Source: an uncultured Clostridia bacterium (GTDB lineage Bacteria; Bacillota; Clostridia; Oscillospirales; CAG-272). From it: a DNA stretch of 39,448 bases. The position numbers were made by a program, and so were the translations under genes. The notes below the pieces were generated by a model. The model saw only the letters and a list, made by a program, of their open reading frames with translations. It ran no database searches and was not told where the DNA came from. Shown here one piece after another: positions 2,043 through 10,680 of this stretch; the first letter of the stretch is position 1, and the number at the start of each line of letters is the position of its first letter. The stretch lies in contig CANROT010000003.1 of NCBI GenBank assembly GCA_947632285.1, positions 1 to 39,448 on the forward strand, given 5' to 3'.

Positions 2043-3521
2043 ATGAGCAAACTCGTTATAAACACATACGACAAAAGGAGCCGTATAGACAAAAATATTT
2101 ACGGTAATTTCTCCGAGCACCTCGGGAGATGCATATATAACGGCATTTATGTCGGCGAAAATTCGCCGATCCCGAACGTGGCGGGCATGAGGACCGATAT
2201 CGTGAAGGCGCTCCGCGACATGAAGCTGCCGGTGCTCCGCTGGCCGGGCGGCTGCTTTGCGGACGAATACCACTGGATGGACGGCATCGGCCCCAAGGAA
2301 AGCAGAAAGCTCATGGTCAACACGAACTGGGGCGACGTCACGGAGGACAACAGCTTCGGCACGCACGAGTTCTTCGAGCTCTGCCGCCAGATCGGCTGCG
2401 AGCCCTACATAAACGCGAACGTCGGCAGCGGCTCCGTTCAGGAGATGTCCGAGTGGGTCGAGTACATGAATTTTGACGGCAAGTCCCCGATGGCGGACCT
2501 GCGCGCGAAAAACGGGCACCCGGAACCGTTCGGCATACGCTATCTCGGCATCGGAAACGAGAGCTGGGGCTGCGGCGGCATGATGCGCCCCGAATACTAC
2601 GCGGACGAGTACCGCCGGTACGCGAACTTCTGCCGCAATTACGGCGAGGACCGCCTCTATAAGATCGCGTGCGGGCCGAACGCCGCCGACTACAACTGGA
2701 CAGAGGTGCTGATGAAGCAGGCGGGGCACCAGATGAACGGGCTGTCGCTGCACTATTACACGATCTGCCACGACTGGGACCACAAGGGCTCCGCGACCGC
2801 GTTTGACGAAAAAGAGTGGTACCTCACGATGAAGAAAACGCTCGAGATGGAGGAGATAATCACCGGACACGAGCACGTCATGGACCGCTATGACCCGCGC
2901 CGCCGCGTCGCGCTCATTGTCGACGAATGGGGCAACTGGTTCGACGTTGAGCCCGGCACGAATCCCGGCTTCCTCTACCAGCAGAACACGATCCGGGACG
3001 CTGTCGTCGCGGGCGTCAACCTCAATATTTTCAACAAGCACAGCGCGCGCGTCAGAATGGCGAACATCGCGCAGCTCGTAAACGTGCTCCAGTCCGTCAT
3101 TCTCACGGACGGCGAGAAAATGATACTGACGCCGACGTACCACGTTTTCAAAATGTACGCGCCGCATCAGAATGCAACACTCGTCGGCAGCTTTATCGAG
3201 AAGTCGAAGATAGGCGTCGAGGACAAGGTCCGCGCGGACGACCTCTCCGAGTCCGCATCGATCGACGCCGAGGGCAGCCTCAACATCACGGTCTGCAACC
3301 TCTCCTGCACGGACGCTCACGATATCGACGCGATCCTTGTCGGATATAAGCCCGCCTCGGTCGAGGGCGAGATCGTGACCGGCAAGATGGACGCGTTCAA
3401 CACGTTCGAGTCTCCGGAAAACGTGCGGGCGGAGCATTTTGACGGCATTAAGCTCACGGACGACGGCATCTCGTTCACGCTGCCCGAATGTTCTGTCGCG
3501 AGGATAACGGTCAAGCGGTAA
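2043..3521 (+). CDS. Alpha-N-arabinofuranosidase, GH51 family
   Basis: Start at ATG 2043: [39 protein letters not shown]...[14 protein letters not shown]...[11 protein letters not shown]...VDEWGNW; typical intracellular GH51, no signal peptide. Confidence 0.93.
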
Positions 3522-3790
3522 TGGACGGAGACTATTCGCAGCCCCGCTGCCGCCGGTGCCTCCTCTCGGAGATCGACCGCGACGGGGTGTATAAAACGGT
3601 GCTCGAATACCTCGCCTCGCTCGACGACTCGGTCAAGTGCGGGGCGGACGAGTACGCGTCCCGCCTCAGGATATGCCGCGCGTGCGACCGCCTTTCGGAC
3701 GGTATGTGCTCGCTCTGCGGCTGTTTTGTCGAGGTCCGCGCCGCCAAAAAGATACAGACGTGCCCCGACCTGCCGCACAGGTGGGAATAA
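3521..3790 (+). CDS. DUF6171-like small cysteine-rich (zinc-ribbon) protein
   Basis: ATG at 3521 overlaps the GH51 stop (TAATG). [17 protein letters not shown]...RLRICRACDRLSDGMCSLCGCFVEVRAAKKIQTCPDLPHRWE with several CxxC motifs. Confidence 0.75.
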   Translation: MDGDYSQPRCRRCLLSEIDRDGVYKTVLEYLASLDDSVKCGADEYASRLRICRACDRLSDGMCSLCGCFVEVRAAKKIQTCPDLPHRWE

Positions 3791-3869: not shown

Positions 3870-6800
3870 TTATTCAGTGAGCTTTTTCGCTCTCTCGGTC
3901 AGCTCTTTGTATCTTTCGTCCTCCCTCGCGGAGTCGAACCACCCCCAGCTCTGCTGTGTCGACGTCATGGCGCGGTATATAATTCCGCTGTCGGAGAGCC
4001 GCCGGCCGTCGATGATGCCGTCCGCGTCGATCTCGCGCTTTGTGCCGTCCGGCAGCTCTATTATCGACTGCCCTTTTATATAGCGAATGCTTCCGAACGC
4101 CGCCTCGTCGCCGAAGGAGAGCGCCTCGCCGTCCGGTACCGCGTGCCACCGCTCGGCGAAGTCGAGCGCAAGCTCGAGATATTTGTACCCGTCCCCGCGC
4201 TCGCCGCCGCCGAAAAACGCGAGCGATGCCAAAAGGCATATCCATGACGCTTTCGCGCAGAACGCGGGCGGAACGCTGCCGTCTCCCGCCGCCTCGAGCA
4301 GCCGCAGGTAATAGGTAAATCTCCTCGCCCTTGTGAGCGGGTCGCCGTAGTGGTAGTCTCTCTTTGACGTCTGGTGCAGAAGAAGGAGTATCGCGTTGCA
4401 GCCGGACTCGAGGTTTGCCTCATCAAATTTTTCCGCGTTCGCGAGGCACGCCTCTTCAAGCTCGCCGACGGTCGAATTATAGCGGGTGATTTTTTTCGGC
4501 TTATGCCTGATCCCCGTCAAGTCCGAGAAGATCACGAGCTTGCCCTCGCAGTCGCGGGCGTATGTGTATTCCGCCGCGCCCTCGTAGCCGTCGGTAAGCC
4601 CGAGATCCTCGTATCTGCGCCTCATTCCGTCTGCTGCGGGCATGTAGCCTTCGCCCGTGCCTTCGTATGAGGTCAACTCATACGCGCTCACAGAACCGGC
4701 GTTCGTGTATATCTCCACTTTTACGAGCCCCACGCCGGGCGCGAAATAATATGTCCGCCTGCCGCCTCGGTAGATGTGTCCGCTGTCAAACCCGTCGCAG
4801 TATGTGTCGACAGAGAGACACCCGTCAAAGCTCCCGGCGCATACGGTGACCGTTCCCGCGTCCGCGCAGCTTATACGCGTCCTGAGGCTGCTGTTGCTGC
4901 CGTAATCCTTTGATTCTTCGGAACTGTACCCGGGCTGCCACCTCTCGTCAAAGAGGCAGCCTGTTACGTCGTGCAAAATCGAATAGATGTGATTTGAGAG
5001 CAGGCGATTGCAGAGCGAGGTGTCGTCCGTGTTCTTCCACTCAAAGTCAAATCTCCGGCTGCTCCTGACAAGGCAGAGCTTTCCGTCCGTGGACTCGACC
5101 GTATTGCGGTTGAAGAAATTCCACTGTCCCACCGCCTCGCATTCGGGGTCAAATTCCTCGTCCGTCTCGATTATCCTTTTGACGACCGAATATGCTGCCT
5201 CGGCGTGCGCCTTTTCAAACGGCGTCTTCGCGAGCTCCACGGCGCGCCGTGCATAAGGTCTTACGTCAACGATCCTCTCCGGCTCCTTCGTGAAGTAGTC
5301 GTCGCGGGTCTTCAGGATCATGTCGAGCCATGAGTTCTCGTCATACTTGCTCCGAATTATGCGCGTATTCTCCGTAACGATCGCCCTCTCGCCGTCGCAC
5401 CACTCGACACAGATCCGCGTCGGCGCGGAAAACGACTCGGGGTCGCAGTCCATCTCATATTCCCATAAGTTACCGGTGCAGAGCGGCAAAAGCCCTTCGC
5501 CGCCGGAGACGTTATAGGTTTTTAATGATTTTGCGTCGCTGACTCCCTCGCAGATCATCTCTTGCCTGACGAGGCCGACACCGCGCTTGAGCCAGCTTCT
5601 GACCGTGCCGACTTTTAAGCGCGACACCCAGACCTCGCAGCCGGAAAACGTCCCCGCCGGGACCGTGACCGTCTCGTCCCCCGATTCAAACGTGAGCGTC
5701 GAGCCGTCCGAGGCGGTGACGCTCTCGCCCGGCGCTATATCCGCCGTCATCTCCCCGTCGCATCTGAATAGATTTTCAAACAGCTGCGTGCACATATAGT
5801 TCAGCGCGTAGAGCCCGCCTATACTGTAGTATTCGTCCCGGGCTATTTTTAAGCCGCCCGACATGACAAATTCATAAGTCACCCCGACGCTTTTGCGGTT
5901 CTGAACGTCGCTTATGAATTCCTCTTCTGCCGACTCCACAAAGGCTTTTTTCATTTCAAGCGCGTGATGGTATAAAACGTCCGCCGGGGTCAGGAGCGCG
6001 AGCGCGCTGTCAAAGGCGTCCGTGCCGTCCTTTAAGTTTTCGGGCTTTGTCAAGTCGCCGACGGCGCACCATCTGTCCGCGAGCGTGAGCCGGAAATCGA
6101 CGGGGTCAAGGGACGGGATCTGCACGTTTTTGATGTGCTCCCGCTTTTCATCGCCCCAATATTTGGCCGCCTCGCGGACAAGCACATAGCTCATGACCTC
6201 GTTGTTTTTGCCGAGCGTTGCCGCCTCGCGTATGCGTTCGAACAGCCGATCGTTCTTCTCTCCCGGCAGCCACCAGTAACCGCGCATCAGAACGTCCGCC
6301 AGGGCGTGATATTTCTCGCGGCACTCGGGCATCGTGTCGATGTCCTTCAAAACGTCACGATAGACCTTGTCAAAGCCCTCCTTCGAATTCTTGTACTGCC
6401 AGCTTTTTATTTCGTCGATCTTTTTCCTGATCTTCAGAAGTAGCGTGTCATTTAATTTTTCGTCCATAGCACATAGCTCCTTTCGCATTTTCTTTCTGCC
6501 GTCGTGGAGCTGCGATTTGACCGTCCCCACCGATATGCCCATCAGCTTTGCGATGTCCTCCGCGCTCATGTCCTCATAATAGTGCAGATAGACGACCTGA
6601 CGGGCGCGCTCGGGGAGCCGACGCAGTCCGCGGCGCATGAGTTCTGCCTCCTCCTCCGTCATGAGCATCAGCTCCGGGTCCCCGTCGTCGGCGCGCATGT
6701 ACTCTATACCCTCGACGTCGTCAAGGCAGAGATAGTTCCTGAACCGCAGCGCCATGTTCCGGGCGCAGTTTTTGGCGATGCGGCAGACCCATATCCCAAA

Positions 6801-7013
6801 CTTTTCCGGTTCGCGGAGCCGGTCGAGCTTGAGCCACGCCGCCAAAAAGGCGTCCTGCGCCGCGTCCTCGGCGATGTGCGCGTTGCGTATAACGGAATAC
6901 GCCGCCGCGAGGACGCGCTTTTCATGGCGCAGGAACAGCTCGTCATATGCGGCGGAGTCACCAGCGAGCGTCAGGAGCACGAGCGTGCCGTCCGAATTTG
7001 AAGAATGAGGCAT
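3870..7013 (-). CDS. ECF-type sigma-70 family RNA polymerase sigma factor with a ~850-aa C-terminal extension of unknown function
   Basis: N-terminal ~180 aa has sigma region 2 (AYDELFLRHEKRVLAAAYSVIRNAHIAEDAAQDAFLAAWLKLDRL...FGIWVCRIAKNCARN) and region 4 (LPERARQVVYLHYYEDMSAEDIAKLMGISVGTVKSQLHDGRKKMRKEL); the long remainder has no family I recognise. Confidence 0.88.
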   Translation of the reverse strand: MPHSSNSDGTLVLLTLAGDSAAYDELFLRHEKRVLAAAYSVIRNAHIAEDAAQDAFLAAWLKLDRLREPEKFGIWVCRIAKNCARNMALRFRNYLCLDDVEGIEYMRADDGDPELMLMTEEEAELMRRGLRRLPERARQVVYLHYYEDMSAEDIAKLMGISVGTVKSQLHDGRKKMRKELCAMDEKLNDTLLLKIRKKIDEIKSWQYKNSKEGFDKVYRDVLKDIDTMPECREKYHALADVLMRGYWWLPGEKNDRLFERIREAATLGKNNEVMSYVLVREAAKYWGDEKREHIKNVQIPSLDPVDFRLTLADRWCAVGDLTKPENLKDGTDAFDSALALLTPADVLYHHALEMKKAFVESAEEEFISDVQNRKSVGVTYEFVMSGGLKIARDEYYSIGGLYALNYMCTQLFENLFRCDGEMTADIAPGESVTASDGSTLTFESGDETVTVPAGTFSGCEVWVSRLKVGTVRSWLKRGVGLVRQEMICEGVSDAKSLKTYNVSGGEGLLPLCTGNLWEYEMDCDPESFSAPTRICVEWCDGERAIVTENTRIIRSKYDENSWLDMILKTRDDYFTKEPERIVDVRPYARRAVELAKTPFEKAHAEAAYSVVKRIIETDEEFDPECEAVGQWNFFNRNTVESTDGKLCLVRSSRRFDFEWKNTDDTSLCNRLLSNHIYSILHDVTGCLFDERWQPGYSSEESKDYGSNSSLRTRISCADAGTVTVCAGSFDGCLSVDTYCDGFDSGHIYRGGRRTYYFAPGVGLVKVEIYTNAGSVSAYELTSYEGTGEGYMPAADGMRRRYEDLGLTDGYEGAAEYTYARDCEGKLVIFSDLTGIRHKPKKITRYNSTVGELEEACLANAEKFDEANLESGCNAILLLLHQTSKRDYHYGDPLTRARRFTYYLRLLEAAGDGSVPPAFCAKASWICLLASLAFFGGGERGDGYKYLELALDFAERWHAVPDGEALSFGDEAAFGSIRYIKGQSIIELPDGTKREIDADGIIDGRRLSDSGIIYRAMTSTQQSWGWFDSAREDERYKELTERAKKLTE

Positions 7014-7188
7014 TTTTTATTCCTTTCGTTGAAAGCTTTCGTTATATAGACATCAAAAGCATCAAAAAGGTTGGTATGAAAAAGAAAAATTTAAGGAGCC
7101 TTGTTTTGGTATGTGAGATACTGCAAAAAAAGTGTTCACTTGTCGCCGTAAGCCAAACCAAGCAATAAAAAGTTTTGAAGAGGGGGGA

Positions 7189-7244: not shown

Positions 7245-7796
7245 TTACTCCGCCGCGGGCGTTTTGTGCTTTTGTATGTATGCGTCGAGGCGGTCGACGA
7301 TGAGGACGCCGAGGATACCGAAGAGGACGCCAAGCACGAGACCGGCGAGGATATCGGTGGGGTAGTGGACGTAGAGGTACATTCGTGAGAACGCGATCAG
7401 CGCGGCGAGCACGCAGGCGGCGATCCCCCATTTGCGGTGGCGTATGAGGATCACGGTCGCACCCTCAAAGCTTGCCGTCGTGTGCCCGGACGGGAAGGAG
7501 AAGTCCTTCTGCACTTCGCACAGATACGGCATTATCCCCTTGACGTCATATGGTCGGACGCGCGCGACGAGCGGCTTTATCGTTATGTTGCAGACGAGAA
7601 GGCCGAGAATGAGGGCGACCGCCATCATCAGGCCCGTTTTGCGCGTTTTTTTCGGGATCAGGAGCGCTATCGCAAGGATTATCCAGAATATACCCGCGTC
7701 TCCGAGCAGCGTGATCTTCGGCATAAGAAAGTCGAGGAAGGGACAGCGCAGGTGCTCGGCGATGAAATCGAGTATTGCAAGTTCGCTTACATTCAT
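7245..7796 (-). CDS. PAP2 family phosphatase (undecaprenyl-pyrophosphate-phosphatase-like)
   Basis: 183 aa multi-TM; PAP2 signature KPLVARVRP...FSFPSGHTTASF...SRMYLYVHYPTDILAG. Confidence 0.92.
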   Translation of the reverse strand: MNVSELAILDFIAEHLRCPFLDFLMPKITLLGDAGIFWIILAIALLIPKKTRKTGLMMAVALILGLLVCNITIKPLVARVRPYDVKGIMPYLCEVQKDFSFPSGHTTASFEGATVILIRHRKWGIAACVLAALIAFSRMYLYVHYPTDILAGLVLGVLFGILGVLIVDRLDAYIQKHKTPAAE

Positions 7797-7809: not shown

Positions 7810-8976
7810 TTACGCGTTGAACCAGTCGTAGATCAGGAATTTTCCGTCCACATTGTGCAGGAACACGTAATAATCCATGATCTCGCTGAAATTCTGCCCC
7901 TGCCGTTCGAGCAGCAGCTTGAACGAAATGTGGCAGGAAAAGACGTCGTCCGAGAATTTGTAGAATTCGCCGATCTCAATGTCGGTGAAGTCGTAGCTCG
8001 AGGGCGCCCATATCGTCCAAAGCGCGCCCGCCTGAGTGACGAGCTTTTCGTTCGCCGTGGAGTTCAGGTCAAAGTGACCGCTGTATTGCAGCCCCCAAAG
8101 GCTCTTGTCCTGCGCGCCCTGACCGAACGCGGCGAAATCCGTCATCGCGGCCGTCACAAATTCGGAATATTCGTCGGCGAGCGCCTGCGAATACGCAAGC
8201 CCCGCGGTGTACGTCATCGTTTCCTCGTTATATTTGACCTCGGCCTCGTTTCCGTCCGCGTCCGTGACGGTCACCTTTTCGGGCGGGGCCTCAAGCGTGT
8301 TCAGCATGTAGATCGAGAACTCGAGCCCTTCCGTGTTCCCCGATTCGGGCGGGAAATACATGATGATGTCCTTGTTCATGTGCTTCTGGGTGACGTTTTT
8401 CTCGGTGAGGGGGGTGCCGTCAACGGTGACGGTGTAGCTCGAGGGCACGTCGAAATAGAGCGTGACCGTTTTCGGGAGCTCCTCGGTCTCGGGAGGTTCC
8501 GGGTTGTCGCCTACCGTGTTGATAAACAGCTCGATATAGGAGAATTCATACTGAGTGTAGCCGTGCTTGGTCTTCTCGTCGGACGCCTTGAGGATAATGG
8601 AGGCGAGCTGCTTTGACCCGGCGCGGACGATGTATTTCATCTCGTCATCGCTTGCGGAGGAGGCGGAATACGTCACCTCGCTCTCGCCGATCTCGCTTAT
8701 GAGATACATCTTTAACGCTTCGCGCGTCCCGGCCTCGCGATCGTAGCGCGCATCGTCAAGGAGCGCGTCATAGTTGACGGAGGGCTCGAAATACCGCGAG
8801 AATATCTCGGAGGCGATATATTTCGGCTGCGCGTCCTCGTATTCGGCGAGCCGGTTCGAAACGACGCCGAGAGAGGCGATTATGATCAGTATCACCGACA
8901 CGGTCACGGCAAGATATATCGCGTAAAAGCGCGGGATATGAAAGCCGCGGCGCGCGTTGCTTTTTTTCATAGCCAA
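7810..8976 (-). CDS. Hypothetical membrane-anchored extracytoplasmic protein
   Basis: 388 aa; single N-terminal TM (FYAIYLAVTVSVILIIIASLGVV), rest predicted outside; sits in the envelope cluster. Confidence 0.7.
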   Translation of the reverse strand: MAMKKSNARRGFHIPRFYAIYLAVTVSVILIIIASLGVVSNRLAEYEDAQPKYIASEIFSRYFEPSVNYDALLDDARYDREAGTREALKMYLISEIGESEVTYSASSASDDEMKYIVRAGSKQLASIILKASDEKTKHGYTQYEFSYIELFINTVGDNPEPPETEELPKTVTLYFDVPSSYTVTVDGTPLTEKNVTQKHMNKDIIMYFPPESGNTEGLEFSIYMLNTLEAPPEKVTVTDADGNEAEVKYNEETMTYTAGLAYSQALADEYSEFVTAAMTDFAAFGQGAQDKSLWGLQYSGHFDLNSTANEKLVTQAGALWTIWAPSSYDFTDIEIGEFYKFSDDVFSCHISFKLLLERQGQNFSEIMDYYVFLHNVDGKFLIYDWFNA

Positions 8977-8994: not shown

Positions 8995-10680
8995 TTAGCT
9001 CTCGCGCCTGACGAGGAAGAACGTCGGCATCGTGCGCGGCAGGGTAAACGATTTGTATCTGTTTGTCAGCCCTTTGAGCTGGTATTCGTCAAGCCCCGCA
9101 GGGTCCATGTTGTATTTCGTATAGTAGTCCTCGTAATACATCATCGCGGAGGAACCGCCGTCAAGCATACCGGCGACGACGGCGCCCTCGGAGACGAGCA
9201 GGTCAATGACATCGTTGCGGTTCGCGCCGAGGCTCGAGGGAGAGCGCCCGTCCGTGACAAGGAGGATAACGGTCCCGTCCGCGCGCTGCGCGATCGCGGT
9301 GCGCTGCGAAAGCCCCGTGTTTCCCTCGGAGTAGTTGAGCGTCACCTGCTGCCCGTCGTTGCTGATGAGGACGTTGCCGTTCTGGAAGCAGACGCCGTCG
9401 CGTATGCCGAGCTCCTCCGCCTTTGCTTTGGTCAGGGGTTCAACGGCGTGCAGGACGTTGTTTTTGTCAAAGCCGATGAAGGTGCGCCACGAGCCGTCGT
9501 CCCAGACGCAGCTGCCGTTCGAATATGTTATGCCGAGCGGCTGGGCGCCCGAGCCGCCGCCGCCCGTGTCGAGATATTCGCCGGCGTTTATTCCGGCAAT
9601 GGCGTCGAAGCGGGCCACGGTGTCGAATATATTTTTGCCGACGGTCGCCGTCTGATAGTTATCGGACGAAGTGCCGACAAAGACGCGGGAGGGGTCCTTG
9701 ATAAGGAGCAGATACGCCTTGAAGGTCGGCCTCGTATACGTTTTGAAGATCATGCCGTCGATGGCGTTTGCCCATTCGTCGACGACGGGGGGCGGGTCAG
9801 TAACGTCGGTGCCGGGAGTGTCCGTATCCTCCCCCGTGGAGGGCGTGTTCGCGCCCGGGATCGTCCCCATCGGGACGGTGACGGGCTGCTGCTGTTCGCT
9901 GCGCTTGCAGATCTCATCGACGACCTCGTCGTCAAGGAACAGGCCGGGCAGCCATTTCGTTGCGCTCGCCTGCATCGCGGAGAGCACGAGCTTGTCGCGG
10001 ACGGTCTCGCTCGGGCCGTTCACGAGCGTGCTGCACAGCGCGAATGCCGCGAACAGCACCACGAGGATCGTCGTCAGGAAGACGAGCAGCACCCTGCCGA
10101 CAACGATGGACGGGCTCAGGCGTTTTTTCTTATTCGTGCGGCGCACGGGTGCGTCCGCGGACGTCATGCGCTGTACCTGCGATGAGCCGACGGGCGGGCG
10201 GCGTTCGCCGTCACCCGAAGGGGTACGTGCGGGACGCTGCGCGGCGTCTGTCGGCTGCGGCCTTACGGGACGCTGCACGGCATTCGTCGGCTGCGGTCTT
10301 ATGGGTCGCTGCGCGGCGTCCACGGGCTGCGGTCTTACGGGACGCTGCACAGCATCTGTCGGCTGCGGTCTTGCGGGTCGCTGCGCGGCGTCTGTCGGCT
10401 GCGGTCTTACGGGTCGCTGCACGGCGTCTGTCGTCTGCGGTCTCGTAGGACGCTGCGCGGCGTCCACGGGCTGCGGTCTTACTGGTCGCTGTGCGGCGTC
10501 GACCGGCTGCGGCCTTGCGGGACGCTGTGCGGCGTCGGTCGGCTGCGGCTCCGGTGTTTGTTGAATGTCGACCCTTCTTTTTGCGGAGCGCTGAGGCGTC
10601 CGCCTCACGGCGTCGGGGCGCGGCGTGCGCCGGGGCGCCTCCTCTTCCGGGATACGGTTTTCAGAGTTGTTTTCGTCCAT
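8995..10680 (-). CDS. Phosphodiester glycosidase (NAGPA-like) family protein with cytoplasmic Pro/Gln/Arg repeat region
   Basis: 561 aa; N-terminal RPQPxDAAQRPx repeats, TM helix (SIVVGRVLLVFLTTILVVLFAAFAL), then GITYSNGSCVWDDGSWRTFIGFDKNN...GVCFQNG...QRTAIAQRADGTVILLVTDGRS...GAVVAGMLDGGSSAMMYY typical of this family. Confidence 0.85.
   Translation of the reverse strand: MDENNSENRIPEEEAPRRTPRPDAVRRTPQRSAKRRVDIQQTPEPQPTDAAQRPARPQPVDAAQRPVRPQPVDAAQRPTRPQTTDAVQRPVRPQPTDAAQRPARPQPTDAVQRPVRPQPVDAAQRPIRPQPTNAVQRPVRPQPTDAAQRPARTPSGDGERRPPVGSSQVQRMTSADAPVRRTNKKKRLSPSIVVGRVLLVFLTTILVVLFAAFALCSTLVNGPSETVRDKLVLSAMQASATKWLPGLFLDDEVVDEICKRSEQQQPVTVPMGTIPGANTPSTGEDTDTPGTDVTDPPPVVDEWANAIDGMIFKTYTRPTFKAYLLLIKDPSRVFVGTSSDNYQTATVGKNIFDTVARFDAIAGINAGEYLDTGGGGSGAQPLGITYSNGSCVWDDGSWRTFIGFDKNNVLHAVEPLTKAKAEELGIRDGVCFQNGNVLISNDGQQVTLNYSEGNTGLSQRTAIAQRADGTVILLVTDGRSPSSLGANRNDVIDLLVSEGAVVAGMLDGGSSAMMYYEDYYTKYNMDPAGLDEYQLKGLTNRYKSFTLPRTMPTFFLVRRES
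10222..10545 (-). repeat. 36-bp in-frame tandem repeat, ~9 copies (12-aa unit QP[TV]DAAQRP[AV]RP)
   Basis: Read directly from nucleotide and protein sequence; degenerate copies at 36-bp period. Confidence 0.9.

Follow-up and report, generated by a model that had tools for sequence, protein, structure and literature searches.

An ECF sigma factor with a very long mosaic tail in uncultured Clostridia: a probable stand-alone, autoregulated signalling protein

A gene encoding an extracytoplasmic function (ECF) sigma factor joined to a soluble tail of ~860 amino acids (aa) resides in the window analyzed here, a stretch of 39,448 nucleotides of an uncultured Clostridia bacterium (Oscillospirales, CAG-272; contig CANROT010000003.1). 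The fusion protein is probably a stand-alone, one-protein, autoregulated signalling system with a cytoplasmic sensor tail. In the proposed scheme, the sigma2-sigma4 domain would guide RNA polymerase to CCAACCTTTT-N12-TGTCTATA promoters, foremost the gene's own (positive autoregulation), and the tail would take the place of an anti-sigma factor. The helical region, the two DUF3108-like beta domains and the XRE-type effector module of the tail would bind a cytoplasmic ligand or a partner protein; binding would turn the activity of the sigma domain on or off, and the sigma domain would raise its own production and, in some genera, the expression of envelope-associated genes. Support for this scheme comes from an architecture kept in full both inside the family and in further families of its order, from the lack of a conserved neighbour, and from a fixed promoter spacing.

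The gene is a single frame of 1047 aa, which begins with ATG and has no interruption (3870-7013, minus strand), as read in the first-pass annotation. Pfam matches to Sigma70_r2 and Sigma70_r4_2 are both far beyond the cut-offs, and the protein is classified by NCBIfam as sigma70-ECF (TIGR02937; 91.3 bits versus a cut-off of 42.9). Regions 2 and 4 occur without sigma 1 or 3 domains (Pfam), in keeping with the earlier description of the first ~180 aa as a standard ECF sigma factor, and the gene is preceded by an ECF-type promoter with AAC in the -35 element. The extension follows sigma4 in the same polypeptide and is kept in homologues. It had been described as free of obvious transmembrane (TM) segments, and no convincing one was found in the 1047-aa protein: the 19-residue hydropathy peak is 1.66, at residue 917, and mostly 1.2-1.5 in close homologues, by which membrane anchoring was ruled out. 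The open reading frame (ORF) is genuine, and the fusion did not arise by chance.

Homologues of the same architecture, a search for which had been suggested, were identified in many genomes. A scan of GTDB contigs gave 15 homologous loci with 46-93% identity, 14 full length and one ended by the contig end; all come from metagenome-assembled genomes of "Lapin" Clostridia, a name that points to rabbit. Alignment searches across the GTDB family of the window's genome (295 genomes) gave at least ~55 full-length rows and at least ~50 rows ending near residue 840, which lack the last ~200 aa only; both figures are lower bounds, counted among the matches listed, with at most two candidates scored per genome. 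A shorter paralogue, 29% identical, resides in the window's own genome (L002). Matches also occur in several families of the order, in 42 of the 295 genomes sampled across it. In the phylum-wide sample the fusion was found in no other genome, and the beta motif alone matches. Homologues keep the length of the tail and show conservation along all of it.

The tail combines a helical region with DUF3108-like beta domains of lipoprotein type and the effector module of XRE regulators. As the last two are found elsewhere in surface lipoproteins and transcription regulators, it is a mosaic that brings together modules of both kinds. Residues 185-370 begin with the best-conserved stretch after the sigma domain (WQxxNxKxGF...YHALADVLMRGYWWLP), have no Pfam match, and may be called TPR (tetratricopeptide repeat)-like from their appearance in the predicted structure. 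The AlphaFold model of residues 366-842 (mean predicted local distance difference test score, pLDDT, 90.5; predicted template modelling score 0.86) features two beta-rich domains with helices between. The second is an internal repeat of the first (blastp 4e-6), the common motif being VTVPAGTFxGC...GVGLV. The window protein matches PF21347 (DUF3108_like) in two stretches, with 32.7 bits versus a gathering cut-off of 27, and 14 of the 15 homologues match it at E 0.1 or better. The phylum-wide matches inspected are lipoproteins of Bacillota that begin with a lipobox-like N-terminus and share the DUF3108-like module (L274-L284). Their profile matches the fusion proteins at a whole-protein E of ~5e-14 (Z = 20,000), a somewhat favourable value, as the members of the profile were found with the fusion as query. 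The lipoproteins and the fusion are alike in the beta module DYFPxxxNxYWEYEG...VPAGEFxCxKV...YFAxGVGLVKxxF; the former have a signal of lipoprotein type and work outside the membrane, whereas in the fusion the module is repeated and joined to a cytoplasmic sigma domain.

Residues 843-1047 (~200 aa) also form the end of HTH_3 (XRE/Cro) regulators of ~380-410 aa (L025, L032, L034, L035, L036; HTH_3 at E 4.8e-15 in L032). The C-terminal helical domain of these regulators matches residues 845-1047; their DNA-reading part is HTH_3, that of the fusion sigma2-sigma4. The first-pass annotation had seen no recognisable family in the extension, which holds for the helical part and has to be given up for the PF21347 domains and the last ~200 aa. 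No solved structure was found for the tail by sequence, and in effect sigma chains alone match. A helix-grip ARO/CYC fold was considered and is not claimed: tandem enzymes of this type top the Foldseek search with the 366-842 model (E 2e-5, probability 0.99), yet template modelling scores are 0.13-0.19 and the root-mean-square deviation is ~20 Å.

All ORFs within 6 kb were compared at 15 loci, and no conserved neighbour was found beyond the nearly collinear locus L038; L039 has 91% protein identity and yet no neighbourhood in common. Neither an anti-sigma gene nor a partner gene is therefore linked to the fusion gene, an orphan that stands alone. Conserved neighbours, which the first-pass annotation had proposed to look for, are thus missing. 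The absence of anti-sigma genes on either side, which it had noted together with the PAP2 and DUF6171 neighbours, was confirmed and extends over the 15 loci. As to its suggestion of a built-in sensor or anti-sigma module, the extension is best read as a module for sensing or regulation; Pfam detected no anti-sigma domain in it.

An ECF promoter was found upstream of the gene, where the first-pass annotation had advised looking for one, and is strongly conserved. In all of the first 16 upstream regions inspected, CCAACCTTTTT or a close variant of it stands at a constant distance from TGTCTTA or TGTCTATA, after which come GAAAGCTTTC and a ribosome-binding site. A non-redundant set of 108 upstream regions was built after adding 80 further stretches; 93 score at least 12 out of 18 against CCAACCTTTT-N12-TGTCTATA, with a spacer of nearly always 12 bp. 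The mean score is 14.7, versus a mean of 10.4 and a maximum of 13.5 in shuffled sequences. The exact pattern occurs at 27 sites in the 295 genomes, versus 3 for the reversed control. Most sites (23/27) lie 40-140 bp upstream of fusion genes; the other four mark a further fusion (L097), a sigma-fusion remnant (L115), and genes for small membrane proteins (L111, L117). Divergent paralogues have correspondingly divergent promoters, such as CCGAGC / GGCACTA in L002. Positive autoregulation is common among ECFs, and is suggested here by the position and conservation of the promoter and by its co-divergence with sigma subgroups.

A second, separate ECF fusion family of ~555 aa was observed at L211 (406-2073, contig C6 of the window's own genome) and at L212-L215. 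Its tail has no Pfam match, and its promoter, CCAACCTTTT-N10-TGTCTATA, has a 10-bp spacer and is followed by GAAAGCTTTC in 5/5 genomes, including the window's. With the 18-position pattern one further site was found in the window genome, and it belongs to another ECF, which has a spacer-10 promoter there.

To judge from promoter copies with 0-2 mismatches, relatives probably have targets besides the fusion gene. Such copies lie before the genes of two 4-TM homologues from different genera (L111, L201; phmmer 1.6e-10, set of five), of two 2-TM homologues, also from different genera (L203, L204; 1.7e-16), of another 4-TM protein (L117), and of a lipoprotein whose start codon is ~230 bp downstream (L202); TM counts were read from the sequences by eye. 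The proteins at L111 (1587-2075) and L201 (G279:C25) measure 160-185 aa and belong to no family. The XRE regulator L206 (G238:C254) has a near-exact promoter, with the palindrome TAAGTATACTTA right after the -10 element. More members of the 2-TM family have ECF-like promoters, some with the variant -10 element ACACTATA. The search for a regulon in the window genome allowing 2 mismatches gave extra sites at background level only.

The 2-TM proteins, which have a C-terminal soluble domain, were found in 143 of the 295 family genomes (L221-L250; L251 and L252 in the window's own genome). Two tested members have no Pfam family, and the genes often lie behind ECF-like promoters, among them a variant with CCAAACCTTTT...ACACTATATA. 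At L258 (1170-3804, G197:C3) a 2-TM target gene is followed directly by a gene for a sigma-like protein of 196 aa and by an ORF of 684 aa that includes a membrane helix; this ORF possibly encodes the anti-sigma factor of the adjoining sigma-like protein.

Some points weigh against a one-protein system with a sensor tail. In the window genome the gene's own promoter is the sole exact site and the two 2-TM homologues have no such promoter, and a regulon beyond the gene itself is therefore supported in relatives only, none being demonstrated in the window genome. In the full-length AlphaFold model the sigma domain is poorly modelled (pLDDT <50, residues 31-149) and the sigma-tail contact is not resolved. 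DUF3108-like relatives elsewhere are secreted lipoproteins, so that a cytoplasmic ligand-binding role has to be inferred. Sequence and predicted structure are the basis of the scheme; that the sigma domain reads its own promoter, that the tail is a sensor, and the direction of control, are all matters that we infer.

It is possible, if tentative, that the tail is a scaffold of the type proposed for ECF42, which binds a partner protein rather than a small molecule and is needed for activity; a small membrane protein whose gene has this promoter too might be the partner. The scaffold reading falls within the sensor-tail system, and confidence in the two overlaps. Helical regions flank the beta domains, and targets in relatives are small membrane proteins, as a scaffold would have it. 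ECF42 tails are essential, and are thought to work via protein interaction (review PMC8999054). They are, however, made of ~200 aa of TPRs versus the ~860 aa of the fusion tail, which has no TPR match in Pfam and two beta domains besides, and no partner gene is conserved beside the fusion.

A palindrome marks the region just past the -10 element. Perfect palindromes of at least 8 bp, centred 7-11 bp past the -10 octamer, were found in 53 of 93 autogenous promoters, versus 1.2 expected from local shuffles, a count in which related sequences are entered apart and which is not a number of independent events. There are 13 different 4-nt half-sites, so symmetry is kept while the sequence changes. 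Palindromes were not found in eight non-autogenous promoters. The half-site tracks the sigma group, not the genome: the spacer-10 ECF group has GAAAGCTTTC in 5/5 genomes, the spacer-12 genes of G102 and G081 have AAGCGCTT. Counts in a wider window are less clean, as AT-rich upstream control windows hold palindromes too (26/92), and the argument therefore rests on position and on half-site diversity. An RNA hairpin was judged unlikely by reasoning, because a perfect palindrome is loopless and most copies do not pair to the ribosome-binding site.

The fixed distance, the compensated changes, the lack of palindromes in non-autogenous promoters and the link to the sigma group would all fit an activator and a repressor in one polypeptide, in which the sigma domain drives its own promoter and a dimeric tail binds the start-site palindrome and shuts the promoter off. 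This is nevertheless unlikely: Pfam recognized no DNA-binding domain in the tail of the window protein or of its homologues, a class-B subset has a conserved TGAACCCC in place of the palindrome, and a separate, co-diverging repressor or a role at the RNA 5' end may account for the symmetry instead.

Distinctly unlikely is a tethered anti-sigma factor, a tail that inhibits the sigma domain and that a protease cuts off; ECF115 has been suggested to work in this way, and the fused IutY described as doing so. Proteolytic release is known in other fused ECFs (PMC8999054), but the fusion has no membrane segment, Pfam found no zinc-finger or other anti-sigma domain in the tail of the window protein or its homologues, and the conservation of the tail, in length and over its whole span, goes beyond the needs of a disposable tether. 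There is next to no chance that assembly or annotation fused a sigma gene with an unrelated one, the joining error named in the first-pass annotation: the assembly is fragmented (213 contigs), but the fusion occurs in ~100 other places in independent assemblies, and this artefact is therefore excluded.

Table 1. Features of the fusion gene and of its upstream region, in window coordinates
Feature	Position	Strand	Basis and remarks
Coding sequence, ECF sigma fusion protein, 1047 aa	3870..7013	minus	ATG start; single unbroken frame; homologues
Sigma region 2, residues 26-87	6753..6938	minus	Pfam PF04542 (Sigma70_r2), E 3.5e-12
Sigma region 4, residues 126-176	6486..6638	minus	Pfam PF08281 (Sigma70_r4_2), E 2e-19
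All-helical region, residues 185-370	5904..6461	minus	AlphaFold secondary structure, conservation; TPR-like look
Beta domain 1, DUF3108-like, residues 371-560	5334..5903	minus	AlphaFold; PF21347 stretch at 5559-5681; lipoprotein profile match at residues 425-502
Linking helices and beta domain 2, DUF3108-like, residues 561-842	4488..5333	minus	PF21347 at residues 721-778; repeat of beta domain 1; AlphaFold
C-terminal module, residues 843-1047	3873..4487	minus	Common with effector domain of XRE-HTH regulators
Ribosome-binding site (Shine-Dalgarno) GAAAGGA	7021..7027	minus	Read directly; conserved in homologues
Palindrome GAAAGCTTTC	7031..7040	.	Just downstream of -10 element, near expected transcription start
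Putative autogenous ECF-type promoter	7045..7074	minus	-35 CCAACCTTTT (7065-7074), 12-bp spacer, -10 TGTCTATA (7045-7052); expected by chance 0.00

In the window, the fusion gene is flanked upstream by PAP2 (7245-7796) and downstream by DUF6171 (3488-3790). Named neighbours are PAP2, NAGPA, GT2/GtrA and PIG-L on the first side, and DUF6171, alpha-L-arabinofuranosidase and M42 peptidase on the second. No anti-sigma domain was found by Pfam among eight window neighbours; for one of them (7813-8976) there was no Pfam match of any kind. The NAGPA phosphodiester glycosidase (8995-10680, minus strand) carries in its N-terminal part a long Pro/Gln/Arg-rich tandem repeat, with a unit like RPxRPQPTDAAQ.

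At least 26 ECF groups with N- or C-terminal extensions have been described (PMC8999054). C-terminally extended ECFs and the fusion are alike as soluble sigma2-sigma4 proteins with no cognate anti-sigma gene and a C-terminal regulatory extension, but soluble extensions of stated length measure ~120-200 aa versus ~860 aa. No ECF with DUF3108-like beta domains and an XRE-effector tail was found in the review text consulted, and a literature search found no paper joining ECF and DUF3108. The tail has no SnoaL-like domain (Pfam), the feature of ECF41 and ECF56. The cysteines of the tail are scattered, and between sigma2 and sigma4 there is C96 but no CxC, at variance with ECF238 (CorE-like). The fused membrane anti-sigma factors of ECF48, ECF52 and ECF53 have no counterpart either, as TM helices and zinc-finger anti-sigma domains are missing. 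Clostridia groups listed with extensions in Table 2 of the review are ECF262 (Ruminococcus albus), whose extension is unspecified in that text, and ECF288 (Blautia producta), whose extension is cysteine-rich. Both are extended ECFs of related Clostridia, set beside the fusion by description only, and the fusion family could be related to ECF262. Extended ECFs are a known kind; this long mosaic tail is apparently new, as far as the comparison with ECF262 by description goes.

Soluble tails described so far are short and of few kinds, and the fusion family adds a very long cytoplasmic tail made from repressor-type and surface-lipoprotein modules. The orphan gene and its conserved promoter make up an attractive, self-contained sensor-promoter pair, and since the promoter is known to the base, the search for the signal becomes a reporter screen. 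The start-site palindrome, which changes in sequence and stays symmetrical, is a testable feature of autogenous promoters. Should activator and repressor reside in one polypeptide, the fusion would be a self-contained, self-limiting genetic switch, encoded by an orphan gene that recurs across an order of gut bacteria. If the tail is the sensor of a one-protein system, as we consider probable, the fusion would be a complete signalling circuit in one protein, recurring across one order of uncultured Clostridia.
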